From Isoptericola variabilis 225 (GTDB lineage Bacteria; Actinomycetota; Actinomycetes; Actinomycetales; Cellulomonadaceae): DNA of 64,000 bases. Under the pieces are notes generated by a model, which worked only from the letters and a program-made list of their open reading frames with translations, was not told the origin of the DNA and searched no databases. Positions 3,145 through 53,568 of the stretch are shown piece by piece; position 1 is the stretch's first letter, and every line of letters begins with the position of its first letter. The stretch lies in NCBI RefSeq assembly GCF_000215105.1, contig NC_015588.1, positions 3,100,001 through 3,164,000 on the forward strand. Direction: 5' to 3'. The position numbers and the translations under genes were made by a program.

Positions 3145-3217
3145 TGCGCCCGGAGGGATTCGAACCCCCAACCTTCTGATCCGTAGTCAGATGCTCTATC
3201 CGTTGAGCTACGGGCGC
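3145..3217 (-). tRNA. tRNA-Arg (anticodon ACG)
   Basis: The minus strand folds as a 73-nt class I cloverleaf. The acceptor arms are GCGCCCG and CGGGCGC with discriminator A. The anticodon stem TCTGA/TCAGA encloses the loop CTACGGA, giving anticodon ACG. The T loop is GTTCGAATC. CCA is not encoded. Confidence 0.96.
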
Positions 3218-3345
3218 GTGCGGTGCGCTTGCGCACCGGCCGACGAGAACATTACCTCCCCCGTCGCCGTTCCCCAAACCCGCGGGGCCGATCGTGACGG
3301 ACGCCACCGCCGTCGGGCACCGGGAGCCGGTTCGGGCAACAGAAA

Positions 3346-3375
3346 AGGCCCCGGGCGTCGACGCAGCCGGAGCCT
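3346..3375 (-). terminator. Intrinsic terminator of tRNA-Ser(GCT)
   Basis: On the minus strand the stem AGGCTCCGG/CCGGGGCCT is followed by TTTT (3346-3343). It starts 7 nt after the tRNA. Confidence 0.75.
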
Positions 3376-3381
3376 TCCTGG

Positions 3382-3470
3382 CGGAGACGGCGGGATTTGA
3401 ACCCGCGAACGGGTTGCCCCGTTACCACCTTAGCAGGGTGGCGCACTAGACCAGACTATGCGACGTCTCC
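3382..3470 (-). tRNA. tRNA-Ser (anticodon GCT)
   Basis: An 89-nt class II tRNA with a long variable arm. The acceptor is GGAGACG/CGTCTCC. The anticodon stem CCACC/GGTGG encloses CTGCTAA, giving GCT. The T arm contains GGTTCAAATCC. Discriminator G is typical for serine. Confidence 0.95.
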
Positions 3471-3553
3471 TCGCGACCGGCCCGCAGCCTGCCGCGGCGC
3501 CCAGAGTAACCGCCCGGGCACCCCCGCGGCAAAGCGGCAGGCTCGCGGTGCGC

Positions 3554-3589
3554 CGAAGGCCCGGGCCGGCGTACCGGTCCGGGCCTTCG
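3554..3589 (-). terminator. Hairpin downstream of tRNA-Ser(TGA)
   Basis: The perfect stem CGAAGGCCCGG/CCGGGCCTTCG lies 27 nt past the tRNA 3' end. There is no T-run, so this would be an I-shaped actinobacterial terminator. It could act on both strands. Confidence 0.6.
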
Positions 3590-3615
3590 GGGCTCGCGCC
3601 GTGCGGCGCACGACG

Positions 3616-3700
3616 CGGAGGGCGAGGGATTCGAACCCCCGGTGGGTCGCCCCACAACGGTTTTCAAGACCGTCACATTCGGCCGCTCTGTCAGCCCTCC
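3616..3700 (-). tRNA. tRNA-Ser (anticodon TGA)
   Basis: An 85-nt class II tRNA. The acceptor is GGAGGGC/GCCCTCC. The anticodon stem ACGGT/ACCGT encloses CTTGAAA, giving TGA. The long variable arm and discriminator G are as expected for serine. It lies in line with the other two tRNA genes on the minus strand, but each has its own hairpin, so they are probably separate units. Confidence 0.95.
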
Positions 3701-12740: not shown

Positions 12741-12780
12741 ACGACGGCGGCCCGGGCACCTTCGCCCGGGCCGCCGTCGT
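12741..12780. terminator. Bidirectional terminator between convergent genes
   Basis: A 17-bp perfect stem, ACGACGGCGGCCCGGGC and its complement, around the 6-nt loop ACCTTC. It sits between the DUF805 gene and the sugar permease gene. Confidence 0.8.
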
Positions 12781-27238: not shown

Positions 27239-27258
27239 GCGGTGCGCCCCCCGGACGC

Positions 27259-27296
27259 GATCCGTCCCGCCACGGCGGACCGTGGCGGGACGGATC
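27259..27296 (-). terminator. Terminator of the LPxTG surface-protein gene
   Basis: The perfect stem GATCCGTCCCGCCACGG and its complement lies just past the stop at 27311. The inner part, CCGCCACGG...CCGTGGCGG, is shared with the terminator of the paralogue at 30725-30767. Confidence 0.8.
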
Positions 27297-27310
27297 GGTC
27301 GTGCGGCGCG

Positions 27311-41308: not shown

Positions 41309-42403
41309 GTGAGCACCCCCGCAGAGCCCGGAACCGCACCGCTGCGCCTCGGCACCCGGGGCAGCGCGCTCGCCATGACGCAGTCGGGCATGGTCGCGCG
41401 CCGGCTCACCGAGCTCCTGGGCAGGCCCGTGGAGCTCGTGCGCATCCGCACCGAGGGCGACGTGAAGACCGGGTCGCTCGCGTCGCTCGGCGGCACCGGC
41501 GTGTTCGTCACGGCCCTGCGCGAGGCGCTGCTCGACGGCCGCTGCGACGTCGCCGTCCACTCGCTCAAGGACCTGCCCACGACCCAGCCGCCCGAGCTCA
41601 CCGTCGTGACGCCCGAGCGCGAGGACCCGCGCGACGTGCTGTGCGCGCGGGACGGTCTCACGCTCGAGACGCTGCCGCGCGGGTCCCGCGTGGGCACCGG
41701 CTCGCCGCGGCGTGCGGCACAGCTCAAGGCCGCGCGCCCCGACGTCGAGATCGTCGACATCCGGGGCAACGTCGACACGCGCCTCGCCCGCGCGCTCGGA
41801 CCTGAGGCCGACCTCGACGCGGTCGTGCTCGCGCACGCCGGGCTGACCCGGCTGGGCCGCACCGACGTGGTCACCGAGGTCCTGCCGCCCGGCGTGGTCG
41901 CGCCCGCCCCGGGCCAGGGGGCGCTCGCGGTCGAGGCGCGCACGGCCGACCTGCAGCCGGGCGCCCCCGACGGCGGTGCGCTCGCCCGCGCGTTCGCCGC
42001 GCTCGACCACCGCGCGACGCGCGTCGCCGTGATCGCCGAGCGGACCGTCCTGGCCCGGCTCGAGGCCGGGTGCGCCGCGCCCGTCGGGGCGTACGCGCGC
42101 GTCGAGGACGGCGCGCTGCACCTCGGGGCGGTCGTCGCGCGCGTCGACGGCACCGAGCAGCTCAAGCACCGCGCGAGCGTCGAGCTCGCGGCCGAGATGT
42201 CGACCGCCGCGCTCGACGCCGTCGCCACCGAGCTCGGCGAGCGCGTGGCCGAGGCGCTGCTGGCCGACGGCGCCGACCGGCTCGCACCGCTGCGTCCCGG
42301 CACGTCCGCCGCGAGCCCGGAGCTGCCCACGGGCGCCTCGCGCCGGGTCGACAGCGCTCCGCTGCACTCCCCGACCGGCACCGACGACCCGGAGGGTGCG
42401 TGA
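41309..42403 (+). CDS. hemC: Hydroxymethylbilane synthase (porphobilinogen deaminase)
   Basis: 364-aa enzyme that joins four porphobilinogens into hydroxymethylbilane. It starts with the GTRGSALAMTQSG signature. Catalytic Asp is in VAVHSLKDLPT, the substrate-binding arginines are in GTGSPRRAAQL and DIRGNVDTRL, and dipyrromethane cofactor Cys is C255 in LEAGCAAPVGAYA. About 50 residues at the C terminus are Pro/Ser-rich and not part of the core. Start GTG 41309. Stop overlaps the hemD start as GTGA. Confidence 0.95.
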   Translation: MSTPAEPGTAPLRLGTRGSALAMTQSGMVARRLTELLGRPVELVRIRTEGDVKTGSLASLGGTGVFVTALREALLDGRCDVAVHSLKDLPTTQPPELTVVTPEREDPRDVLCARDGLTLETLPRGSRVGTGSPRRAAQLKAARPDVEIVDIRGNVDTRLARALGPEADLDAVVLAHAGLTRLGRTDVVTEVLPPGVVAPAPGQGALAVEARTADLQPGAPDGGALARAFAALDHRATRVAVIAERTVLARLEAGCAAPVGAYARVEDGALHLGAVVARVDGTEQLKHRASVELAAEMSTAALDAVATELGERVAEALLADGADRLAPLRPGTSAASPELPTGASRRVDSAPLHSPTGTDDPEGA

Positions 42404-43230
42404 GCGTGCCCGTCGTGCTCGTGCCGCGCGCACCCGCGCGGGCCGCGGGCCTCGCCCGGCGCCTGCACGACGCGGGCGCCGAGGTCGTCGTGGCGCCCGT
42501 GGTCGAGCGCGCCCCGGTCGAGGACACCGCCCCGCTCGACGAGGCCGTGCGGGCGCTCGCGGCCGGCGCGTACGCGTGGGTCGCCGTGACGAGCGTCAAC
42601 GCGGTCGACGCGCTCGTGGCGGCCGGGGCCCGGACCGGTGCTCCGCTCGACGCGAGCTCGCGGGCGGCTCGGTGGGCCGCCGTCGGGCAGGCGACGCGAC
42701 GCGCGCTCGAGACGGTCGGGGTCACCGTGGACCTCGTGCCCGACGGCGAGTCGTCCGCGGCGGGCCTCGTCGCCGCCTTCACCGAGTTGTCAGGGCCAGG
42801 CCGCGGTATACCCGGGCGTGAGCCTGACAGCTCGCGAGAAGGGCGGGTGCTGCTGCCGCTCGGCGACCTCGCCGGCCCCACGCTCGCCGACGGGCTCGCC
42901 TCGCTCGGCTGGACGCCCGACGTCGTCACCGCCTACCGCACCGTGCGCACCGACCTCCCGGCCGACGTCGCGCGGCGCGCGTACGACGTCGTGGTCGTCA
43001 GCTCCGGGTCCGTGGCCCGGGAGGTCGCGCGCCAGGTCGGCACGCGCGCGCCCGTCGTCGCGATCGGGCGGCCCTCGGCCGAGGCCGCGCGCGAGGCGGG
43101 GCTGACCGTCGCCGCCGTCGCCGAGCACCCGACCGACGAGGCGCTCGCCGCCGCCGTCACCACCGTCCTGTCAGAAACCCGGTGGGCTCTGGCCCACCAG
43201 GTTTCTGACACCAGAAGGGAGCACCCGTGA
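42400..43230 (+). CDS. hemD: Uroporphyrinogen-III synthase carrying two in-frame palindromic insertions
   Basis: 276-aa enzyme that closes hydroxymethylbilane to uroporphyrinogen III. The fold is recognisable by [46 protein letters not shown] and [15 protein letters not shown], and by its position between hemC and hemB. Two 42-bp palindromes lie within the reading frame. One (residues 130-143) sits at the hinge between the two lobes and gives [17 protein letters not shown]. The other (residues 257-270) supplies almost all of the last 20 residues, [15 protein letters not shown]. Both keep the frame. The C terminus therefore comes from the element rather than from the family. The ends overlap hemC and hemB by 4 nt each. 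Fold and function should survive because both sites are peripheral (inference). Confidence 0.92.
42788..42829 (+). repeat. 42-bp palindrome, family A copy 1 (in hemD)
   Basis: TGTCAGG...CCTGACA with a centre near GGTATACC. The symmetry extends outwards to CGAGT and GCTCG. Translated in hemD as part of [17 protein letters not shown]. The partner copy is at 52618-52659 in copA. Confidence 0.9.
43169..43210 (+). repeat. 42-bp palindrome, family B copy 1 (hemD 3' end)
   Basis: TGTCAGAAACC...GGTTTCTGACA, arms of about 19 bp with one mismatch around a 4-nt centre. It ends 16 nt before the hemB start and immediately before the hemB ribosome-binding site. The partner copy is at 51310-51351. Confidence 0.9.
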
Positions 43231-44252
43231 GCACCTCCGGGATCGTCTACCGGCCGCGCCGTCTGCGCGCCACGCCGCGCATGCGCCGCCTCGTCGCCGA
43301 GCACCGGCTCCACGCAGCCGACCTGGTGCTGCCGCTGTTCGTCAAGGAAGGACTCACCGAGCCGGCGCCCATCAGCTCGATGCCCGGCCAGGTGCAGCAC
43401 ACCGAGGAGACGCTGCGCGACGCGGTCGCCGCGGCAGCGCGCGCGGGCCTCGGCGGGATCATGCTCTTCGGCATCCCGGCGGTGCGCGACGCGACCGGCT
43501 CGCAGGCCGAGGCGCCCGACGGGATCCTCCAGCGCGGCATCCGCGCCGCGCGCGAGGCGATCGCCGCCGTCGAGCAGGAGACCGGCCGGCCGGGACCGGT
43601 CGTCATGGCCGACACGTGCCTCGACGAGTTCACCGACCACGGGCACTGCGGGGTCCTCACGCCGGACGGCGTGGTCGACAACGACGCGACGCTCGACCGG
43701 TACGCGGCCATGGCGGTCGCGCAGGCGAAGGCCGGCGCGGAGGTCGTCTCGCCGTCGGGGATGATGGACGGCCAGGTCGCGGTGATCCGCGACGCGCTCG
43801 ACGACGCGGGCTTCGAGTCGGTGAGCATCCTCGCCTACAGCGCCAAGTACGCGAGCCCGTTCTACGGGCCCTTCCGCGAGGCGGTCGACTCGGCGCTGCA
43901 GGGCGACCGGCGCACGTACCAGATGGACGCGGCCAACGGCCGCGAGGGCCTGCGCGAGGCCGACCTCGACCTCGCCGAGGGCGCGGACATGGTCATGGTC
44001 AAGCCCGCCGGCTCGTACCTCGACGTGCTGCGCGGCGTCGCGGACCGCTCGGACGTGCCCGTCGCGGCGTACCAGGTCTCCGGCGAGTACGCGATGATCG
44101 AGGCCGCCGCCGCCAACGGCTGGATCGACCGCCGGGCCTCGGTGCTCGAGTCCGTGCTGAGCATCAAGCGCGCGGGCGCCGACGTGATCCTCACCTACTG
44201 GGCGCTCGAGATCGCCGGCTGGTTCAGCGAAGGACAGGAAGGACGGGCATGA
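43227..44252 (+). CDS. hemB: Delta-aminolevulinic acid dehydratase (porphobilinogen synthase)
   Basis: 341-aa enzyme that condenses two 5-aminolevulinates to porphobilinogen. The Schiff-base lysines are K207 ([17 protein letters not shown]) and K259 ([13 protein letters not shown]). The metal region is [14 protein letters not shown]; one of the three zinc cysteines of the classic CxCxxxxHGHCG motif is Asp, which suggests a metal preference other than pure zinc (inference). Start GTG 43227 overlaps the hemD stop and has AGAAGGGAG upstream. That site abuts palindrome B1, so folding of the palindrome could influence hemB translation. Confidence 0.96.
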
Positions 44253-45637
44253 CGGACACCGCAGGCTTCGGACTCGTGGAGAACGCGATGGTGGACAGCA
44301 CCGCACCGGCCGACAACCACGCGGCGTTCGTCCGCGCGCAGGCCGCGATCCCGGGCGGCGTCAACTCGCCCGTGCGCGCGTACGGGTCGGTGGGCGGCGA
44401 CCCGCGGTTCCTCGCGAGCGCACGCGGGGCCTACGTGACCGACGTCGCGGGCCGCGAGTACGTCGACCTCGTCGGCTCGTGGGGCCCGGCGCTGCTGGGG
44501 CACGCCCACCCCGACGTGGTGGCGGCCGTGCAGGAGGCCGCGGCGCGCGGCCTGTCGTTCGGCGCGCCGACGGTCGCGGAGGTCGAGCTCGCGGAGGAGG
44601 TCCGACGGCGCGTGCCGCCCGCCGAGCGCGTGCGGCTCGTGTCCACGGGCACCGAGGCCACCATGACCGCGATCCGGCTCGCGCGCGGCGTGACCGGGCG
44701 GCCGCTCGTCGTGAAGTTCGCCGGCTGCTACCACGGGCACGTCGACGCGCTGCTCGCCGAGGCCGGCTCCGGCGTCGCGACCCTGGGCATGCCGGGGACG
44801 TCGGGCGTGACCGAGGCGTCCGCGGCCGAGACGCTCGTGCTGCCGTACAACGACCTCGCGGCCGTCGAGGCCGCGTTCGCGCAGCACGGCTCGCAGATCG
44901 CCGCGGTCATCACCGAGGCGTCGCCCGCCAACATGGGCGTCGTGCCGCCCGCCGAGGGCTTCAACGAGGGCCTGCGCCGCATCACGTCCGCGCACGGCGC
45001 GCTGCTGATCCTCGACGAGGTGCTCACCGGGTTCCGCGTGGGGCCCTCGGGCTGGTGGGGTGTGGAAAACTCCGCGAGCGCGACCACCGGCTCCGAGGGG
45101 TACACGCCCGACCTGTTCACGTTCGGCAAGGTCGTGGGCGGCGGGATGCCCGTCGCGGCGCTCGGCGGGCCGGCGTCGATCATGGACCAGCTCGCGCCGA
45201 GCGGGCCGGTGTACCAGGCGGGGACGCTGTCCGGGAACCCGGTCGCCGTGGCCGCGGGCCTGACGACGCTGCGCCTGGCCGACGAGTCGGTGTACGCGCG
45301 GGTGGACGCCGTCGCGGACACGCTCGCGACCGCGCTCGGCGACGCCCTCGCCGCCGAGGGCGTGGAGCACCGCGTGCAGCGGGCCGGGTCGCTGTTCTCC
45401 GTGTTCTTCGGACCGTTCGCCGCCGAGCACGGCGTGCGCGACTACGCGCAGGCCCAGGCGCAGGAGGTCTTCCGCTACCGCGCGCTGTTCCACGCGATGC
45501 TCGACGCCGGGGTCAACCTGCCGCCGTCGGTCTTCGAGGCGTGGTTCGTCTCGGCGGCGCACGACGACGACGCGGTCAGCCGCATCGTCGACGCCCTGCC
45601 CGCCGGGGCGCGGGCCGCGGCGGCCGCGACGGCCTGA
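44249..45637 (+). CDS. hemL: Glutamate-1-semialdehyde 2,1-aminomutase
   Basis: 462-aa PLP-dependent aminomutase making 5-aminolevulinate from glutamate-1-semialdehyde, the product of HemA. PLP lysine is near K294 in [12 protein letters not shown]. Other signatures are [43 protein letters not shown] and [13 protein letters not shown] 44249 overlaps the hemB stop as ATGA and has AGGAAGGACGG upstream; a second ATG at 44288 is possible because the first residues are not conserved. It is the last gene of the haem operon and is followed by two hairpins. Confidence 0.96.
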
Positions 45638-45641
45638 CCTC

Positions 45642-45685
45642 GGGCGCCGCCCGGCCGGTCGGCGCCCATGGGGACCTCTCCCCAT
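45642..45685 (+). terminator. Double hairpin after the haem operon
   Basis: Stem 1 GGGCGCC/GGCGCCC (45642-45667), directly followed by stem 2 ATGGGG/CCCCAT (45668-45685). They separate hemL from the next operon. Confidence 0.55.
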
Positions 45686-45747
45686 CGACCGTGCACGGCG
45701 GACCTGGCATCCTAGGTCCGCGCGTACGGAAGACAGGGGGTGTTCGC

Positions 45748-46035
45748 GTGGGAGATCGACTGCGCATCGACCTCGGCGTCGTGCGGGACACCGCGACGCG
45801 GCTGGGCTCGATCGGCACGAGTCTCGAGGGTGCCGAGTCGGCGGCCGACGAGCTCGCCGGGATGATCCCGCACCGCGGGCTCGCCGGCTGCGTCGAGAAG
45901 TTCGGCAAGAACTGGGACCGGGCCCGGACCGAGCTCATCGGCAAGCTCGAGGACCTCCAGGGGGCGGCGACGACCGTCGCGGACACGTTCGAGGAGGCCG
46001 ACTCCGAGATGGCCGCGACCGTGAGGGGTGAGTGA
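45748..46035 (+). CDS. Small WXG100/ESX-like helical protein
   Basis: 95-aa all-helical protein. Two amphipathic helices are separated by a turn around LAGCVEKFGKNWDRAR; the family WxG turn is represented here by W-D-R. The N-terminal RIDLGVVRDTATRLGSIGTSLEGAESAADEL and the C-terminal ATTVADTFEEADSEMAATV are typical of WXG100-family members encoded before type VII secretion cargo in actinobacteria. Start GTG 45748 has ACAGGGGG upstream. The stop overlaps the next start as TGATG. It probably pairs with the following protein as a secretion partner (inference). Confidence 0.72.
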   Translation: MGDRLRIDLGVVRDTATRLGSIGTSLEGAESAADELAGMIPHRGLAGCVEKFGKNWDRARTELIGKLEDLQGAATTVADTFEEADSEMAATVRGE

Positions 46036-47450
46036 TGGTCAGCCGCAGCGACGCGCTGACGCGCTCGTACGAGATGGAGCCGCTCGACGGCGACCCGGCG
46101 GGCATCCGCCGTCACGCGAACCGGTACACCCGGGTCGCCGAGAAGGTCGCGCAGGCCGTCGCGGACCTGCGGTCGACGATCGCCGACGCCGAGAGCCACG
46201 AGTCGGACGCGATGGACGAGCTCGCGCGGCAGGCGGACGACGTCATCCCGAAGCTCTCCAAGATCCAGAACCGGTACGAGGTCGCGGGCTCGGAGCTCGC
46301 GACGTTCGCCGACGTGCTCGAGCAGGCGCAGGCGACCGTCGACGCCTCGCTGCGGACGCGCGAGTCGCTCGCGGCGGACCTGGCTCGGTACGACGCGCAG
46401 ATCACCGAGGCGCAGTCGAGCCTCGCGTGGGCGCCGACCGAGGAGATCGAGCAGCGGCGCGACGAGCTGGTGCGGCTCGAGAACACGGCGGCGCCGATGG
46501 CGCAGTCGCTCGCCGACGCGCGCACCGCCTACGACGGCGCGCTCGAGGACGTCCGCACGGCGGGTGACAAGGCCGAGGACGCGATCAACGAGGCCGTGGA
46601 CGCCGACGGGCTCACCGACTCCCGCTGGGACCGGTTCAAGAGCTGGGTCACAGAGAACGTGGGCTGGATCAAGGTCCTCAAGGACGCGCTGTCGATCATC
46701 GCGACCGTCCTGGGCGTGCTCTCGATCTTCTTCCCCGTCCTGCTGCCGTTCGCCGTGGCCTTCGCTGCCGCGACCCTGCTGCTGAGCACGACGCTCGCGG
46801 CGACGGGCAACGGCTCGTGGCTCGACGTCGGCCTCGACACGGTGGCCCTGCTGACGCTGGGCGTCGGTGCGGCGATCGGCTCCGGTGTCAAGCTCGCCCA
46901 GGGCGCACTGCGCGTCACCCGTTCGGCACGCCTCGCGTGGGCGGGCGCCAGCCGGCCCGGTGTCTTCGGCAGCCTGCTTCGCCCGGTCCGAGCCGGGCTG
47001 CGGTACGGCGACGACGCCGTCCGGGTCGCTGACGACCTCGCCCAAGCCATGCCTACCGGTGTCCGGCTGCTCGGCCGCCCCACCTACGGCAGCCTCGACG
47101 ACGCGTGGCGGGTGTTCCGCGGCGGCGGTGTCGACGGCGCCGTCTTCAGGTCGATCGCGGAGAACGCCACGCTCGGCGCGGGCGGGCTCGTGGACGACGT
47201 CCTCCTGGGCGCGGGACGGAGCATGGCGAACGCGTCTTTCGCCAACAACCTCGTCGGTCTCGCAGGGACGGCCGTGAGCTGGCACGACGATCTCATCAAC
47301 GGGAACATCCTGAACGTCTCACCAGGTCTGCGCGACCTTCCCGACGCGTTCGGCGGGGATCTCCTCGGGCGTTACGGCGACTGGTGGTCCGAGGTCGACG
47401 GGGCGACGTTCGACGTCGTCGGCGAGTGGGACCCGGCAGGCAAGTCGTGA
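46035..47450 (+). CDS. Putative type VII-secreted protein (LXG/T7SS_signal-like) with hydrophobic middle
   Basis: 471-aa protein not assignable to a named toxin. Residues about 20-200 are long alpha-helical, coiled-coil-like segments (PAGIRRHANRYTRVAEKVAQAV, then LEQAQATVDASLRTRESLAADLARYDAQITEAQSSL) as in T7SS-exported proteins. Two hydrophobic segments follow (about 220-256 and 266-286). The C-terminal 180 residues end in RYGDWWSEVDGATFDVVGEWDPAGKS. No nuclease, ADP-ribosyl or peptidase motif was found. The order after an ESX-like gene, and the helical N terminus, are what I would expect of a polymorphic-toxin-like or scaffold cargo. ATG 46035 is preferred to GTG 46032. Confidence 0.65.
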   Translation: MVSRSDALTRSYEMEPLDGDPAGIRRHANRYTRVAEKVAQAVADLRSTIADAESHESDAMDELARQADDVIPKLSKIQNRYEVAGSELATFADVLEQAQATVDASLRTRESLAADLARYDAQITEAQSSLAWAPTEEIEQRRDELVRLENTAAPMAQSLADARTAYDGALEDVRTAGDKAEDAINEAVDADGLTDSRWDRFKSWVTENVGWIKVLKDALSIIATVLGVLSIFFPVLLPFAVAFAAATLLLSTTLAATGNGSWLDVGLDTVALLTLGVGAAIGSGVKLAQGALRVTRSARLAWAGASRPGVFGSLLRPVRAGLRYGDDAVRVADDLAQAMPTGVRLLGRPTYGSLDDAWRVFRGGGVDGAVFRSIAENATLGAGGLVDDVLLGAGRSMANASFANNLVGLAGTAVSWHDDLINGNILNVSPGLRDLPDAFGGDLLGRYGDWWSEVDGATFDVVGEWDPAGKS

Positions 47451-48022
47451 CGCGGGAACAGATCTCTCGTCGGTGGGACCTGGTCGGCAGACTCGTGTTC
47501 GTCGCCGCGATGTGCTTCTGCGTCGAGATGCTCGTCTACGTCGTGCAGATGTTCGTCGCCCTGGCGATGCAGGAGAACTTCGGGTCGACCGGCGTCGTCG
47601 CGACCGTCTGGCGCTGGCTCGCCTGGGGCCCCGCCCTGGTCTACGCCTCCGCGGTCCTCATCAGCCTTCCCTTGCCGCGGTGGCGCGGGCGCGAGACCCG
47701 CTGGTCGGCGGGCGGACGCAGGCGCGTGCCTCCGATGGGCCGAGGCATGGTCCTGTTCTTCGGTCCCCTCCTGTTCCTCAGCACCGCCGCGCACTCCATC
47801 TCGTTCCTGTCGACCAGCGACGTCGAGGAGCATGCGACGTCCGGATCCGTGGTCTACCTCATGGTGGGCGCGATCGGCCTGCTGCTGCTGCGGATCGTCC
47901 TGGGTGCGCTGCGCCTCGTCCCTCGCTCCTGGCGGGTGCTGCCCGACGCCGAGCCTCCCGCGACGCCCGACGTCGTCGTCCCGGAGCAGCGCTTCGCACC
48001 GGACCGGGAGCCGCGCGCATGA
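47447..48022 (+). CDS. Membrane protein of the ESX-like island
   Basis: 191-aa protein with four hydrophobic segments (about residues 14-38, 52-75, 104-123 and 135-155) and a cytoplasmic Pro-rich tail. No family is recognised. Start GTG 47447 overlaps the previous stop as GTGA, which ties it to the cargo gene. It could be an immunity or accessory membrane component; this is only a guess from its position. Confidence 0.7.
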   Translation: MTREQISRRWDLVGRLVFVAAMCFCVEMLVYVVQMFVALAMQENFGSTGVVATVWRWLAWGPALVYASAVLISLPLPRWRGRETRWSAGGRRRVPPMGRGMVLFFGPLLFLSTAAHSISFLSTSDVEEHATSGSVVYLMVGAIGLLLLRIVLGALRLVPRSWRVLPDAEPPATPDVVVPEQRFAPDREPRA

Positions 48023-48654
48023 CCGCGACCGCAGATCGTGCCGGGACGCCCTCCAGGTACGCGCTGATCCTGCCTCCAGGCTTCGTCCTCATCCCCGCGC
48101 AGGGCGACGTCGAGGCCGACGTGCGCGCCGTCGTCAAGCGGCACTACGGCGCCCACCTGAACGACCGAACGCGCGGACGGGTACGCCGCCTCGAGCAGTC
48201 GCTCGTGGCCACCGTCTCCTCCGCGAAGGAGCGTGGGGTGGTCGACGTGGTCCTCCCCCTCGGCGTCCCGTGGCGTGTGCCCGTGTCGCTCGCCGCCGCG
48301 TTCGCGCCCGCACGGCACGGCGGCGAGCCCGTGGCCGGTCCCGGCTCGACGACGGTGCGTACGCGCGCAGGCGACGCGCGGCGGGAGGTGGTGGAGCACG
48401 ACCGGGACGATCGCGTCGAGCTCGACGTCGACCTGCCCGAGCCGGCGCCCGGCGGGCCGCTGCGAACGGTCCACCACGTGTGGGAGTCCCCGGCCCGCGG
48501 CGTCGACCGGCTCGTCGGGACGTTCACGATCTCCGGGTCAGCCGACCCCGAGCTCGCGCCGATGGTCGATGCGCTCACGGAGCTCGGCGACACGATCATG
48601 GCGTCGCTGCGATGGCGCGGCATCGACACCGACACCACGGAGGAGTCCGCGTGA
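48019..48654 (+). CDS. Unknown protein of the ESX-like island (211 aa)
   Basis: 211-aa soluble protein, no signal peptide. It begins RYALILPPGFVLIPAQGDVEADVRAVVKRHYG and ends with a helix, MVDALTELGDTIMASLRWRG. The long alpha/beta layout and final helix resemble the Mog1/LpqN-like proteins often found near ESX loci, but I cannot assert homology. The next gene product ends in a similar way (VLDAFAASISL), so the two may be distant paralogues. ATG 48019 overlaps the previous stop as ATGA. Confidence 0.68.
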   Translation: MTATADRAGTPSRYALILPPGFVLIPAQGDVEADVRAVVKRHYGAHLNDRTRGRVRRLEQSLVATVSSAKERGVVDVVLPLGVPWRVPVSLAAAFAPARHGGEPVAGPGSTTVRTRAGDARREVVEHDRDDRVELDVDLPEPAPGGPLRTVHHVWESPARGVDRLVGTFTISGSADPELAPMVDALTELGDTIMASLRWRGIDTDTTEESA

Positions 48655-49214
48655 CCGTCAAGGTCGACATCGACACCGACCGCTGGGTCTACGTGCCCGA
48701 GGCGTTCCCCTGGAACGGGTACGAGTCCCCCGAGCACTGGTCGCGGACGGTCGCGCGGCTCGCCGCGGAGGCGTTCGAGTACGACGCCGAGGAGCGCGGC
48801 GTGCTCGAGCGGTACCTGATGCAGCTGCTCGCGTACCCGCGCCTGACCGAGGGCGTGCACCGGTTCGCGCTCCTCGGCACGCCTGACAAGACCTTGGAGC
48901 TCGTCCAGGTCGTCGAGGCGCCGACGCGCGACGACGTCCCCGCCGACAGCCTCCTCGGCCTGCCCGAGCCCGACGCGACGCGCGAGCCGGAGATCACGGA
49001 GATCTCCGGCGGCCTCGGTGCCGGCCGCCGCGCGATCCGCCACACGCGCGCCGAGGGTCTCGGCGGCGACATCGTGGCCTCCGTGAACTGGGCATGGCGC
49101 ACCGACGGCAGCGACGTCGTCGTCATGTACGGCACGCAGAACCTCGTCCAGCTCGACCGGCTCCTGCCCGTCCTCGACGCGTTCGCCGCGTCGATCAGCC
49201 TCGCCGAGCACTGA
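48651..49214 (+). CDS. Unknown protein of the ESX-like island (187 aa)
   Basis: 187-aa soluble acidic protein. N terminus KVDIDTDRWVYVPEAFPWNGYESPEHWSRTVARLAAEAFEYDAEE; C terminus ASVNWAWRTDGSDVVVMYGTQNLVQLDRLLPVLDAFAASI. There is no signal peptide or membrane helix. GTG 48651 overlaps the previous stop as GTGA. It is the last of five coupled genes; the next gene is convergent. It is a possible chaperone or immunity protein for the secreted cargo (inference from position only). Confidence 0.68.
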   Translation: MTVKVDIDTDRWVYVPEAFPWNGYESPEHWSRTVARLAAEAFEYDAEERGVLERYLMQLLAYPRLTEGVHRFALLGTPDKTLELVQVVEAPTRDDVPADSLLGLPEPDATREPEITEISGGLGAGRRAIRHTRAEGLGGDIVASVNWAWRTDGSDVVVMYGTQNLVQLDRLLPVLDAFAASISLAEH

Positions 49215-49241
49215 CGAGGCCGACCGACGCGGCGGCGGGGG

Positions 49242-50267
49242 TCAGCCCTGCTCGGGCAGGGTGTCCCAGAACGAGGTGTCGGCGGTCTCGATCGAGCCGT
49301 CGGCGACCGCCTGCGCCGTCGACATCAACGTCACGACGGTCTGACGGATGAGGTACCCGTTGCTCTTCTGGCCGAGGATCGCGCCGGCCCACTCGTGGTC
49401 GGACATGCCGCGCATCTCGAAGAGGAGCGTGGAGATGCCGTACTCGGCCGCGACGCCGTTGCGCGCGATGGTGTTGGCCGTGCCGCCGACGTACTTGCCG
49501 AGGTGGCCCCAGCCCGTCGAGTCGACGTTCTCGTAGACGACCGCCCCGAGCCGCTTGGAGCCCTCGAGGACCGCGGGATCGACGTCGGGCGTCGTCGGGT
49601 ACAGGATCGAGCCCGACACGAGCTTGCCGTCGACGCGCGACTGCGTGCCCTGGTGGTGCAGGTCGATCATGTAGTCGATGTCGTAGGCACCGAGGACGTT
49701 CTCGTGCAGCGCCTGCGTCTCGGGCTCGAGCTTGGCGACGTGGTCGCGGTTGAGGTCGACCTCGTTGGCGTTGTAGCGCGTGAGGTGCCGCTCGCCCTTG
49801 GCCAGGTAGTGGTCGATCGAGAAGTTCACGTCGCCCATCGCGCCGTCGGCGTTGAACATCGGCACGAACAGGATGTTGACGTCGTCGAGCATCCGGGCGT
49901 GCTGCCCCGACCCCAGCGTCTTGATGACGTGCAGCATCGCCTCGGTCGTGAGCTGCTCGTTGCCGTGCTGCTGCGCGAGGTAGAGGATCGTCGGGTTCTC
50001 GGGGTCGCTGACGTACTTCACGAGGTGGATGTCTCGGCCCTTGACGGTCTGGCCGATGACCTCGAGCTCCATCGCGTCCTGCTTGGCGTCCTGCGCGTGC
50101 AGGAAGTCCACGACCTCGTCGTACGTGGACAGGATCGACGTGGTGATGACCTCGTTGCCCTGGTAGTCGGGCCCCTCCCCCACGGCGCCCGCGGTCGCGG
50201 TGCCGCCGACGACGAGCGCCCCGGTGAGGGTGAGAGCGGCGGAGGTGGTCCTGGCGGTTCTGCGCAC
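49242..50267 (-). CDS. Secreted M14-family zinc carboxypeptidase
   Basis: 341-aa exported metallopeptidase. Signal peptide VRRTARTTSAALTLTGALVVGGTATAGA. Zinc ligands are in LAQQHGNEQLTTEA (HxxE) and IDLHHQG; the arginine/Asn substrate site is in RYNANEVDLNRDH; the catalytic Glu region is STLLFEMRG. M14 enzymes trim C-terminal residues of peptides or cell-wall peptide stems; the subtype is not clear. Start GTG 50267 gives the proper signal peptide; an upstream ATG would add 20 residues before it. It is divergent from csoR, and its start lies only 7 nt from the csoR -35 hexamer, so copper regulation could touch it (inference). Confidence 0.87.
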   Translation of the reverse strand: MRRTARTTSAALTLTGALVVGGTATAGAVGEGPDYQGNEVITTSILSTYDEVVDFLHAQDAKQDAMELEVIGQTVKGRDIHLVKYVSDPENPTILYLAQQHGNEQLTTEAMLHVIKTLGSGQHARMLDDVNILFVPMFNADGAMGDVNFSIDHYLAKGERHLTRYNANEVDLNRDHVAKLEPETQALHENVLGAYDIDYMIDLHHQGTQSRVDGKLVSGSILYPTTPDVDPAVLEGSKRLGAVVYENVDSTGWGHLGKYVGGTANTIARNGVAAEYGISTLLFEMRGMSDHEWAGAILGQKSNGYLIRQTVVTLMSTAQAVADGSIETADTSFWDTLPEQG

Positions 50268-50273
50268 GGTGAC

Positions 50274-50301
50274 TTGACGTGGTACCCCCAGGGGGTATGG
50301 T
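50274..50301 (+). promoter_or_regulatory. csoR promoter
   Basis: TTGACG (50274-50279), 16-nt spacer, TATGGT (50296-50301), which ends 7 nt before ATG 50309. The mRNA should be leaderless. The spacer is filled by the CsoR operator. Confidence 0.65.
50283..50297. promoter_or_regulatory. CsoR operator
   Basis: Perfect palindrome TACCCCCAGGGGGTA, the GC-tract inverted repeat known for CsoR-type copper repressors. It lies between -35 and -10 and touches the -10, so apo-CsoR would block polymerase and Cu(I) would release it. Confidence 0.85.
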
Positions 50302-50308
50302 GGACGGT

Positions 50309-50647
50309 ATGAGCGAGACCACCGCACCCACCGCCGTCGGGCACGAGCACGCGCCGCACGACGGGCCGCACGGCTACGCCTCCGACAAGGAGGGGTACCT
50401 CAAGCGCATGCGCCGCATCGAGGGCCAGGTGCGGGGCATCGCGCGCATGATCGACGAGGACGTGTACTGCATCGACATCCTCACGCAGGTCTCCGCCGTC
50501 ACGAAGGCGCTGCAGGCCGTGAGCGTCGCGCTCGTCGAGGACCACCTCGGGCACTGCGTCGTCGACGCCGCCCGCACGTCGCCCGAGGAGGGCGCCGCGA
50601 AGGTCCGTGAGGCCGCCGACGCCATCGCGCGCCTCGTCCGCAGCTGA
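50309..50647 (+). CDS. csoR: Copper-sensing transcriptional repressor CsoR
   Basis: 112-aa four-helix CsoR/RcnR-family repressor. The Cu(I) ligands are C54, H79 and C83 (VYCIDILTQ, then EDHLGHC), with the exact 25- and 4-residue spacing of the family. The N-terminal YLKRMRRIEGQVRGIARMI is the DNA-binding helix. A His-rich N-terminal extension (GHEHAPHDGPHG) may add metal affinity. Start ATG 50309 is set by the TATGGT hexamer 7 nt upstream. It is the first gene of csoR-copZ-copA and is autoregulated through the operator at 50283-50297. Confidence 0.96.
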   Translation: MSETTAPTAVGHEHAPHDGPHGYASDKEGYLKRMRRIEGQVRGIARMIDEDVYCIDILTQVSAVTKALQAVSVALVEDHLGHCVVDAARTSPEEGAAKVREAADAIARLVRS

Positions 50648-50681
50648 ACCGCCGCCGAATCCGACCCTGGGGGAATCCACC

Positions 50682-50990
50682 ATGGCCACCGTCACCGCTC
50701 TGTCCGTCTCCGGCATGCACTGCAACCACTGCGCGTCGTCCGTCACGCGCGAGCTCAAGGCCGTCGACGGCGTCGAGGAGGTCATCGTCGAGCTGCACGC
50801 CAACGAGACCTCGTCGGTCCGCGTGATCTCCGACGACCCGCTGCCCGAGGACGCCCTGCGCGCGGCGATCGACGAGGCCGGCTACGACGTCACCGGCGTC
50901 GAGGTCCTCGAGGACGCCGTCGCCGCCGAGTACGCGCAGCAGGCGCCCGCCCGCCAGGCGCCGCACACGCTGCCGATCGTCCGGTCCTGA
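50682..50990 (+). CDS. copZ: Copper chaperone CopZ (HMA domain)
   Basis: 102-aa protein. The first 70 residues are a heavy-metal-associated domain with GMHCNHCASSV (Cu(I)-binding C-x-x-C). The C-terminal 30 residues are Ala/Gln/Pro-rich. It delivers copper to the CopA ATPase encoded just downstream. Start ATG 50682, preceded by CTGGGGGAATCCACC. The gap to csoR is 34 nt. Confidence 0.94.
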   Translation: MATVTALSVSGMHCNHCASSVTRELKAVDGVEEVIVELHANETSSVRVISDDPLPEDALRAAIDEAGYDVTGVEVLEDAVAAEYAQQAPARQAPHTLPIVRS

Positions 50991-51020
50991 CCCAGCCCTG
51001 ACCCGGGAGCCGCACCGCTG

Positions 51021-53483
51021 ATGACGACGCACACCGACCACTCCCCCGGCACCGGGGCCCCGGCCACGCCCGACGCCCCGCTGCGCGAGGTCGACCTCGC
51101 CGTGTCCGGGATGACGTGCGCGTCGTGCGTCGCCCGGGTCGAGCGCAAGCTCACCAAGCTCCCGGGCGTCGAGGCGACGGTCAACCTCCCGCTCGAGAGC
51201 GCGCACGTCGTGCTGAGCCGGGACGTGCCCGACGACGAGCTCGTCCGCGCCGTCGAGGCTGCGGGCTACGAGGCGCGCGTCACGGGCTCGCGCTCCCTCA
51301 CCACCGACGTGTCAGAAGAGGAGTGGGCTGGAGCCCACCAGGTTTCTGACACGGTGGAGTACCGCGGCGCGGACCTGCTGCGGCGGCTGCGGGTGTCGGC
51401 CGTGCTCACGGTGCCGGTGCTCGCCCTGTCGATGATCCCGGCTCTCCAGTTCACGGGCTGGCAGTGGGTCGTCGCGGCCCTCGCGCTGCCCGTGGTCACC
51501 TGGGGCGCGTGGCCGTTCCACGTCGCGGCCGTCCGCGCGGCCCGGCACGGCGCGTCGACCATGGACACGCTCGTGTCGGTCGGCGTCGTCGCGGCGAGCG
51601 TGTGGTCGCTGTGGGCGCTGCTGCTCGGCGGTGCCGGGGAGCTCGGCATGCGCATGGAGGCGACGCTGCTGCCGAGCCGCGACCACATGGGCCCGCCAGA
51701 GCTCTACTTCGAGGTCGCGGCCGTCGTCACGACGTTTCTCCTCACCGGCCGCTACGCCGAGCACCGCTCGAAGCGGCGCGCGGGCGACGCGCTGCGCTCG
51801 CTGCTCGAGCTCGGCGCCAAGGAGGCCGAGCGGGTCGCCGTCGGTCCCGACGGCACGCCGCTGACCGGGCCCGACGGCGGACGGGTCACCTCCCGGGTGC
51901 CGGTCGCCGAGCTGCGCCGCGGCGACGTGTTCACCGTCCGCCCGGGCGAGAAGGTCGCGACCGACGGCGTCGTGCTCTCCGGGACCTCCGCCGTCGACAC
52001 GTCGCTCCTCACCGGCGAGCCGGTGCCGGTCGACGTCGGGCCCGGCGACGCCGTCACGGGTGCGACCGTCAACACGTCCGGGCACCTGCTCGTGCGCGCG
52101 ACGCGCGTGGGCTCCGAGACGACGCTCGCCCAGATCGGGCGGCTCGTCGCCCAGGCGCAGACCGGCAAGGCGCCCGTGCAGCGGCTGGCCGACCGGATCT
52201 CGGCGGTGTTCGTGCCGGTCGCCTTCGGCATCGCCGCGCTGACCCTGGTCGGCTGGCTCCTCGCCGGCGCGAGCACGCAGTTCGCGTTCACCGCGGCCGT
52301 CGCGGTGCTCATCATCGCCTGCCCGTGCGCGCTGGGCCTCGCGACGCCGACGGCCCTGCTCGTCGGCACCGGCCGGGGTGCCCAGCTCGGCGTGCTCATC
52401 AAGGGCCCGGAGATCCTCGAGTCGACGCGCCGCATCGACACGGTCGTGCTCGACAAGACCGGCACGGTGACCGAGGGCCGCATGCGGCTCGAGCGCGTGA
52501 CACCCGCCGAGGGCGTCGACGCCGACGAGGCGCTCCGGTACGCCGGCGCCGTGGAAGCCTTGAGCGAGCACCCGATCGCGCAGGCGGTCGCCGCCGCGGC
52601 CGCCGCGTCCCGCGAGTTGTCAGGCTCACGCGTGGGTATGCCCGGGCCTGGGCCTGACAGCTCGGACGACAAGGGGGCGCTCGAGGTCTCGGAGTTCGTC
52701 GCGACGGCGGGCGGCGGCGTGGAGGGCCTCGTGCGTGCCGCGCACTCGGGCCTGGGCACGGGCACGACGGCGGCTCTCGCGCTCAACGCGCGACGCGTCG
52801 TCGTCGGGCGGCTCACGTGGCTCGACGAGCGCGGCGTGCGCGTCCCCGACGAGGTGCGTGCCGCCGTCGGGCAGGCCGAGGACACGGGCGCGACGACGGT
52901 CGTGGCCGCGTGGGACGGCACGGCACGCGCGGTGCTCGAGCTCCGCGACCCGGTCAAGCCCACGTCCGCCCGGGCGGTCGCGGAGCTCCAGGCGCTTGGC
53001 CTGCGGCCCGTGCTGCTCACGGGCGACTCCGAGGGCGCGGCGCGCGAGGCGGCCCGCCAGGTCGGCATCGCGGAGTCCGACGTCGTCGCGCGCGTCCTGC
53101 CGCAGGACAAGGCGGCCGCCGTGCGGCGGCTCCAGGCCGAGGGTCGCGTCGTCGCGATGGTCGGCGACGGCGTCAACGACGCGGCGGCGCTCGCGACGGC
53201 GGACCTCGGGCTGGCCCTGGGCACCGGCACCGACGTCGCGATCGAGGCGAGCGACATCACGCTCGTGCGCGGCGACCTGCGCGCCGCGCCGACGGCGGTG
53301 CGCCTGTCGCGCGCGACGCTGCGGATCATCAAGCAGAACCTGTTCTGGGCGTTCGCGTACAACACCGCGGCGATCCCGCTCGCGGCGGCCGGGCTGCTCA
53401 ACCCGATGATCGCGGGCGCGGCCATGGCGGCGTCGTCGGTGCTCGTGGTGAGCAACTCGCTGCGGCTCCGCCGGGCCGGCTGA
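51021..53483 (+). CDS. copA: Copper-exporting P1B-type ATPase, with two in-frame palindromic insertions
   Basis: 820-aa P1B-1 ATPase that pumps Cu(I) out of the cytoplasm. N-terminal HMA domain with GMTCASC (about residues 30-36); eight membrane helices; TGE loop (LTGEPVP); metal site CPCALG (about 434); phosphorylation site DKTGTVTE (D477); SEHPIA nucleotide motif; [10 protein letters not shown] hinge (about 715). Two 42-bp palindromes are translated within it. B2 (residues about 97-111, [15 protein letters not shown]) sits between HMA domain and first helix. A2 (residues about 533-547, [17 protein letters not shown]) lies in the nucleotide-binding domain after SEHPIAQAV. Both lie in surface linker or loop positions where insertion is tolerated (inference). 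Start ATG 51021. Confidence 0.96.
51310..51351 (+). repeat. 42-bp palindrome, family B copy 2 (in copA)
   Basis: TGTCAGAAG...GGTTTCTGACA with centre GTGGGCTGGAGCCCAC. Same length and same reading frame as copy 1 in hemD. The left arm has diverged more than the right. Confidence 0.9.
52618..52659 (+). repeat. 42-bp palindrome, family A copy 2 (in copA)
   Basis: TGTCAGG...CCTGACA with centre GGTATGCCC. Flanked by CGAGT and GCTCG exactly as copy 1 in hemD, and read in the same frame. Confidence 0.9.
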
Positions 53484-53493
53484 CGCCACCCCT

Positions 53494-53568
53494 TCGCGAG
53501 GTCGTACCTCCGGTCGCGAGGTCGTACTCCCGGGGTACGACCTCGCGACCGGAGGTACGACCTCGCGA
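53494..53568. repeat. Perfect 34-bp inverted repeat made of 20-bp units (convergent gene space)
   Basis: Arms 53494-53527 and 53535-53568 are perfectly complementary around TCCCGGG. Each arm holds CGCGAGGTCGTAC repeated with 20-bp spacing. It lies between copA and a convergent ABC permease gene and could terminate both transcripts. Its ACCTCG core and 20-bp period resemble the arrays at 17229-17350 and 57162-57252. Confidence 0.9.

Follow-up and report, generated by a model that had tools for sequence, protein, structure and literature searches.

What would place four copies of the same kind of palindrome, read in the same frame, inside two unrelated genes? The four lie in hemD and copA within a 64,000-nucleotide stretch of the Isoptericola variabilis 225 genome (contig NC_015588.1, positions 3,100,001 to 3,164,000; hereafter the window). 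A reading made from the sequence alone had located all four, described each as 42 bp with TGTCAG and CTGACA tips, sorted them into two families (A and B) with one copy of each in either gene, and noted the shared frame xTG TCA G; all of this was borne out (4/4 copies for the frame). The gene names (uroporphyrinogen-III synthase for hemD, copper P-type ATPase for copA) follow that reading and agree with conserved orthologues. The four repeats are imperfect, with 32, 36, 30 and 32 symmetric positions of 42, and are called dyads here. We read the dyads as recognition sites for Pal, a putative DNA-binding nuclease with a dedicated gene in the chromosome, and probably also as units that move or are converted through it, a reading to which we assign a probability of roughly 0.55. 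It builds on sequence-level features: the repetition of the dyads, their fixed length and single frame, their shared addresses with concerted turnover of the cores, Pal genes flanked by matching dyads, and the lack of Pal at the syntenic locus in three congeners without dyads.

A genome-wide set of dyads read in one codon phase

The genome holding the window (G000; 3,307,740 bp, one contig) was searched with the pattern TGTCAG-N25..35-CTGACA, a wider form of the N30 search that the sequence-only reading had proposed. This gave 98 matches, window copies included, every one 42 bp though 37-47 bp were allowed, and the reversed control gave 0, showing that the dyads are not chance occurrences. Covariance models trained on 44 A and 50 B copies raised the total to 103 dyads, comprising 47 A, 55 B and one pattern match of a third core type (2408285). 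One tip is changed in 5 of the 103, and three of these (854265, 1181824 and 1994660) were scored as 43 bp long on at least one strand, possibly through a 1-bp tip insertion. The G141 orthologue of the copy at 118692 is also a dyad with an altered tip, so strict-tip counts are lower bounds. Family-A ends carry a GAGT or GAGC flank in 73 of 94 cases and family-B ends a CG flank in 69 of 110; with GAGT...ACTC flanks the family-A unit is about 50 bp. Sixteen pairs stand in close tandem, 15 of them spaced by 60-63 bp and one by 54 bp.

With genes called by our own codon score, 37 of the 103 dyads fall within genes and 65 in the spaces between them, and the remaining copy overlaps a gene in part. 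Of the between-gene copies, 41/65 have a stop codon no more than 25 nt away, and 11/65 separate divergent genes. The in-gene copies in G000 all share codon phase 1 (37/37), as do those of twelve other genomes, where 49 of 124 copies examined were in genes (49/49). Overall, a single compatible frame, the criterion used for Rickettsia palindromic elements (RPEs), was found in 86/86 in-gene copies. The B-type peptide reads (L/V)SExxWAxAHQxSDT, and the A-type peptide ends in (N/S)S.

At third codon positions the in-gene copies keep A or T, although the host genes have a G+C fraction (GC3) of 0.956 there. In family A and B copies within genes, A occupies position 5 in 35/36 and T position 38 in 36/36; these tips partly define how most copies were found, while family-A positions 11, 20 and 32 do not, and they hold A or T in 18, 17 and 18 of 18 in-gene copies. 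The two arms covary between genes in both families (0/2000 arm shuffles reached the observed pairing), whereas the in-gene arms in G000 showed no covariation (15.11 pairs in A, where 15.29 were expected, and 14.89 in B, where 15.48 were), and the signal is weak when all copies are pooled. Retention of A/T at third positions, together with covariation confined to copies between genes, indicates that the common requirement is a dyad in the DNA sequence, with a hairpin favoured only where translation allows.

Placement near stop codons and covarying arms are also what RNA hairpins would give if they acted as transcription terminators or stabilisers of mRNA 3' ends. A pure RNA stem was ruled out by the in-gene arms, and we consider a hairpin role highly improbable as the explanation of the family, given 86 copies in genes, the copies between divergent genes, and a genome-wide likeness of cores that such hairpins would not need.

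Shared addresses and turnover of cores

Within the genus, 8 of 18 genomes had dyad matches, and the core differed from genome to genome. Across the bacterial family, 59 of 221 genomes (G000 counted) in 16 of 25 genera had at least one match, again with genome-specific cores; by our count 41 of the 221 held at least 4 dyads, with a maximum of 200, and the reversed control over the same genomes gave one positive. The largest genus (g21) had no listed genome with a dyad match. A strict family-B pattern allowing one mismatch or fewer was found in 3 other genomes of 150 family genomes sampled, as 1-2 near-perfect palindromes each; family B is numerous in G000 only. Exact B-like single dyads were seen in Puerhibacterium puerhi (L029, 3440-3481), between apparent methionine-transporter genes read by eye without a family search, and in Isoptericola variabilis (L030, 3256-3297). 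Carriage by viruses was rejected after exact patterns for the A dyad with flanks and the B dyad gave 0 matches in IMG/VR.

The complete set of copies in the relative G072 was compared with that of G000. Of its 48 copies, 25 stand beside the same gene as a G000 copy, none more than 150 nt from the orthologous position and most no more than 20 nt from it; for two of them (L181:1227 and L195:2217) the match ran through a host-gene paralogue. In the partial sets, copies at G000 addresses numbered 4 of 10 compared in G110 (13 copies in total), 5 of 29 in G137 (67), 2 of 3 in G141 (18), 2 of 2 in G084 (7), 1 of 1 in G132 (7) and 0 of 2 in G149 (20), with some of these loci coming from hemD and copA searches and thus biased toward those two addresses. 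The copA loop that holds the 52618..52659 dyad has copies in or near it in G141, G072, G084, G110, G137 and G149, and also in another genus (G032 and G049). Copies of G007 and G032, from other genera, come to within 2-15 nt of G000 copies in three genes other than copA, and none of the compared copies of G050, also of another genus, matched a G000 address.

The cores at these addresses tell a different story from the addresses themselves. In the 18 pairs of orthologous G000 and G072 copies left after removal of 7 tandem or secondary matches, the 30-bp cores share 15.7/30 positions, against 15.3/30 for non-orthologous pairs, while core identity within a genome is 20.0-23.1/30. Dyad addresses are old, and cores are homogeneous within each genome. 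The sequence-only reading had proposed a family of RPE-like mobile elements, and had named as evidence against it distant orthologues with the same residues at the same positions. Positions do recur, with different residues. A large actinobacterial family, in genes and between them and read in a single frame, stands; purely recent mobile DNA does not, as many family-A addresses are common to species, and some to genera, while their cores turn over.

Family B is mostly private to G000. A B copy was not seen at 11 of 13 queried B sites in G141, G150 and G151 (one to three relatives per site); the hemD copy had no counterpart in any of the three, and the copA copy none in G150 or G141. Three B places are at G072 addresses (557778, 808504 and 1163062). 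The simple insertion of 14 codons suggested earlier was not recovered, with copy-free sites in the three nearest relatives differing by about 0 to 45 nt net because copies sit in variable linkers. This variable length leaves no clean insertion scars, and a search for the target-site duplications expected of miniature elements (MITEs) of DDE transposons met no clean empty sites, only sites of differing length in variable linkers. The copA of dyad-less G145 (L108) has a remnant-like peptide, ELSGPGAGPDGPDG, at the dyad address, as if from a decayed copy.

Genome-specific cores that turn over in place resemble DNA-uptake sequences, which come in dialects, and raise the idea of molecular drive with no enzyme of its own, in which uptake-signal-like sequences are enriched by biased recombination or transformation. 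Uptake signals usually exceed 200 copies, a number that the dyads at most reach, and the linkage to Pal described below would be left unexplained; we find this explanation barely credible.

Pal, a candidate partner protein

The Pal family surfaced when dyad-rich stretches of several genomes were compared. Pal has about 300 amino acids, with an AbiEi fold match over residues 4-202 (a winged helix-turn-helix, wHTH, and a nucleotidyltransferase-like fold) and a putative C-terminal PD-(D/E)XK-like nuclease fold; its Pfam DUF559 match is weak (E 0.07), and the Pal alignment, used as a profile against PDB sequences, found no match. The two G000 genes, palA and palB (Table 1), are about 60% identical, and Pal genes of G072 (80% to palA) and of G124, from another genus (70%), each lie between dyads of their own genome. 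In all, four Pal genes in three genomes have matching dyads on both sides, in G000 A with A and B with B. Each main dyad family in G000 has its own candidate partner in this sense, a Pal paralogue encoded among its copies. The strain corresponding to G124, a genome with two core types, has a second Pal homologue (P0060), and P0037, a homologue listed for Isoptericola halotolerans, is without the N-terminal part.

Of the 285 genes called near G000 copies, four had dyads on both sides within 260 nt: palA, palB, a neighbour of palA and an oxidoreductase. The last, the second gene enclosed by B copies, was set aside as a partner because it is an ordinary flavin adenine dinucleotide (FAD) oxidoreductase. 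Between a conserved response regulator and ABC transporter, palA is missing in three dyad-less single-contig congeners (G058, G116 and G122), of which G116 and G122 also lack the small oxidase gene beside palA, and no Pal homologue was found in the 400 kb examined of each. The compared stretches of G007, G032, G049, G050, G137 and G141 held no Pal gene; for G049, the 400 kb examined held neither a dyad nor the syntenic palA locus and is uninformative on Pal. The homologue P0012 had no match in a plasmid collection, none in IMG/VR, and one distant phage record at 36%.

Other partners were considered. A Y1/TnpA_REP-type enzyme, which the sequence-only reading had suggested looking for, was rejected: the Y1 transposase domain PF01797 was found in 0 of 18 genus genomes, with controls positive in 5/14. 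A scan of a few neighbouring genes, three near palA and one near palB, showed no toxin gene; the ABC transporter next to palA matches AAA_21, a putative AbiEii toxin model, weakly, and ABC_tran far more strongly. A dyad regulon was rejected, since Pfam assigned a mixture of functions to the 20 neighbouring genes that were scanned.

The adjacency of Pal could still be a coincidence, with the dyads being ordinary interspersed palindromes of the repetitive extragenic palindromic (REP) or RPE type that depend on some other enzyme. They stand beside stop codons and in genes, as REPs and RPEs do (PMC3733652; PMC10969869; both in excerpt), and CGTC-tagged REPs likewise have no known enzyme (PMC3733652, in excerpt). 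Chance adjacency would have to account for Pal genes flanked on both sides by the matching family, for two Pal genes among only four doubly flanked genes, and for the joint absence of Pal and dyads at the syntenic locus in 3/3 congeners. We think it improbable.

Binding and cutting of dyads by Pal are predictions. Pal would bind the dyad core through a fast-changing wHTH recognition helix, and its nuclease would act on dyads or on diverged sites; conservation between the G000 and G072 proteins is lowest in the window of this predicted helix. Repair from cognate copies could then overwrite or copy dyads, with the invariant tips supplying short homology, and the expected outcome is cores that are alike inside a genome and different between genomes. 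Dyads would persist where they are tolerated, beside stop codons and in protein linkers, where the single frame gives a hydrophilic Gly/Pro/Ser peptide. In the fullest version, the AbiEi-PD-(D/E)XK nuclease and its 42-bp dyads co-evolve, a shift in the helix being followed by nuclease-triggered conversion that replaces every core at fixed addresses, and core enzymes carry the translated copies as linkers. We offer this version tentatively, at less than even odds.

The main rival keeps Pal as the binding protein but makes the dyads a network of sites serving the host in the organisation or regulation of its chromosome, with Pal as a nucleoid or terminus-sensing factor and cores that co-evolve with it by ordinary selection at each site, without copying or conversion. 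In its favour is a 659-kb span of G000 (1,326,012-1,985,328) that holds no dyad (P about 1e-5 for 71 separated loci) and is centred opposite open reading frame 68-1609, which we take to be dnaA. A fixed length of about 4 helical turns, the regular tandem spacing, addresses common to species and genera, the A/T kept at third codon positions and the lack of covariation in genes would also fit, and AbiEi proteins are described as DNA-binding regulators (PMC7319586, in excerpt). Against it, the largest dyad-free gap in G072 (797 kb) has a P of 0.08, with another gap of 537 kb elsewhere, and avoidance of the region opposite dnaA is suggestive only. Moreover, 10 of 18 genus genomes have no match, so that such a role would be dispensable, the neighbouring genes are functionally mixed, family B is abundant in G000 only among the 150 family genomes sampled, and the conserved nuclease fold is left unexplained. 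We judge a host network unlikely as an alternative to copying or conversion, although it could hold together with nuclease-driven spread.

Table 1. Dyads and genes of the hemD/copA window (window coordinates) and the two Pal genes (G000 coordinates)
Feature	Position	Strand	Location	Remarks
42-bp dyad, family A	42788..42829		within hemD	congener G141: orthologous copy with another core
42-bp dyad, family B	43169..43210		3' end of hemD	next start codon (GTG 43227) 16 nt on
42-bp dyad, family B	51310..51351		copA, N-terminal part	
42-bp dyad, family A	52618..52659		variable loop of copA	
hemD	42400..43230	+		start uncertain; hosts one A and one B copy
copA	51021..53483	+		hosts one A and one B copy
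palA	2658338-2659201	minus	between A copies 2658289 and 2659405	start probably further upstream
palB	393726-394658	minus	between B copies 393680 and 394783/394846	

With the gathering score as threshold, no Rfam family matched the window dyads or those in the two Pal regions. Palindromes of a different kind also occur in the window. A long near-perfect one lies directly 3' of copA (53495-53567), a place where several relatives have other long palindromes, some with ends GTTGTGRG...CYCACAAC and species-specific interiors, and two more strong palindromes without TGTCAG tips lie at 27258-27297 and 12741-12780. Positions 1-658 and 3145-3700 hold a partial 16S rRNA gene (minus strand) and three tRNA genes.

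Comparison with known systems

The closest likeness is to REPs, their paired form (REPINs) and REP-associated tyrosine transposases (RAYTs): in both cases families of short palindromes are specific to a genome, frequently stand next to stop codons, occur in tandem and enclose a dedicated gene between matching copies. A gene flanked by its cognate palindromes, which marks REP/RAYT systems, was found here four times (palA, palB and the Pal genes of G072 and G124), though with a different protein, whose AbiEi fold is joined to a PD-(D/E)XK-like part; none of the 18 genus genomes has a Y1 HUH transposase. The dyads differ further in their 42-bp length with constant tips, in the share of G000 copies in genes (37/103), in their shared addresses with core turnover, and in lacking a GTAG tag, which was found at the foot or within 8 nt in 0/204 A and B ends. 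To our knowledge, RAYTs are the one dedicated enzyme class of repeated bacterial palindromes, and that class belongs to REPs.

Translation in unrelated genes in a compatible frame is shared with RPEs and CGTC-tagged REPs (PMC10969869; PMC3733652; both in excerpt). RPEs are about 150 bp (PMC10969869, in excerpt), whereas the dyads are 42 bp in 98/98 exact-tip copies and 42 or 43 bp in the five others. A CGTC tag was found at the foot in 0/204 ends, and within 8 nt in 0/94 A and 7/110 B ends, against a background rate of 0.079. The main text of PMC3733652, which reports no enzyme for CGTC-tagged REPs, does not contain the term Actinob-.

On the protein side, Pal shares the AbiEi fold with AbiEi antitoxins and MenA (Rv2827c), and AbiEi binds inverted repeats (PMC7319586, in excerpt); Pal differs in its C-terminal nuclease-like domain and in candidate sites that are scattered genome-wide. 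It differs from DUF559/Vsr-like endonuclease-domain proteins such as NGO0050 (PDB 3hrl) in that its nuclease-like part is fused to an AbiEi part. We know of no function for the DUF559/Vsr-like family, and AbiEi-nuclease proteins would here gain a first proposed role. Titles and abstract openings in the open-access literature gave no description of these dyads or of a palindrome-linked AbiEi-nuclease.

Stable addresses whose cores change in concert offer a directly testable example of a DNA-binding protein altering its specificity together with roughly a hundred sites, and they show how a constraint at the DNA level writes recurring peptides into core enzymes. A partner enzyme of a second kind, unrelated to the RAYTs of REPs, could account for orphan families of palindromes, and the dyads, if Pal recognises them, would be a new kind of enzyme-linked repeated DNA.

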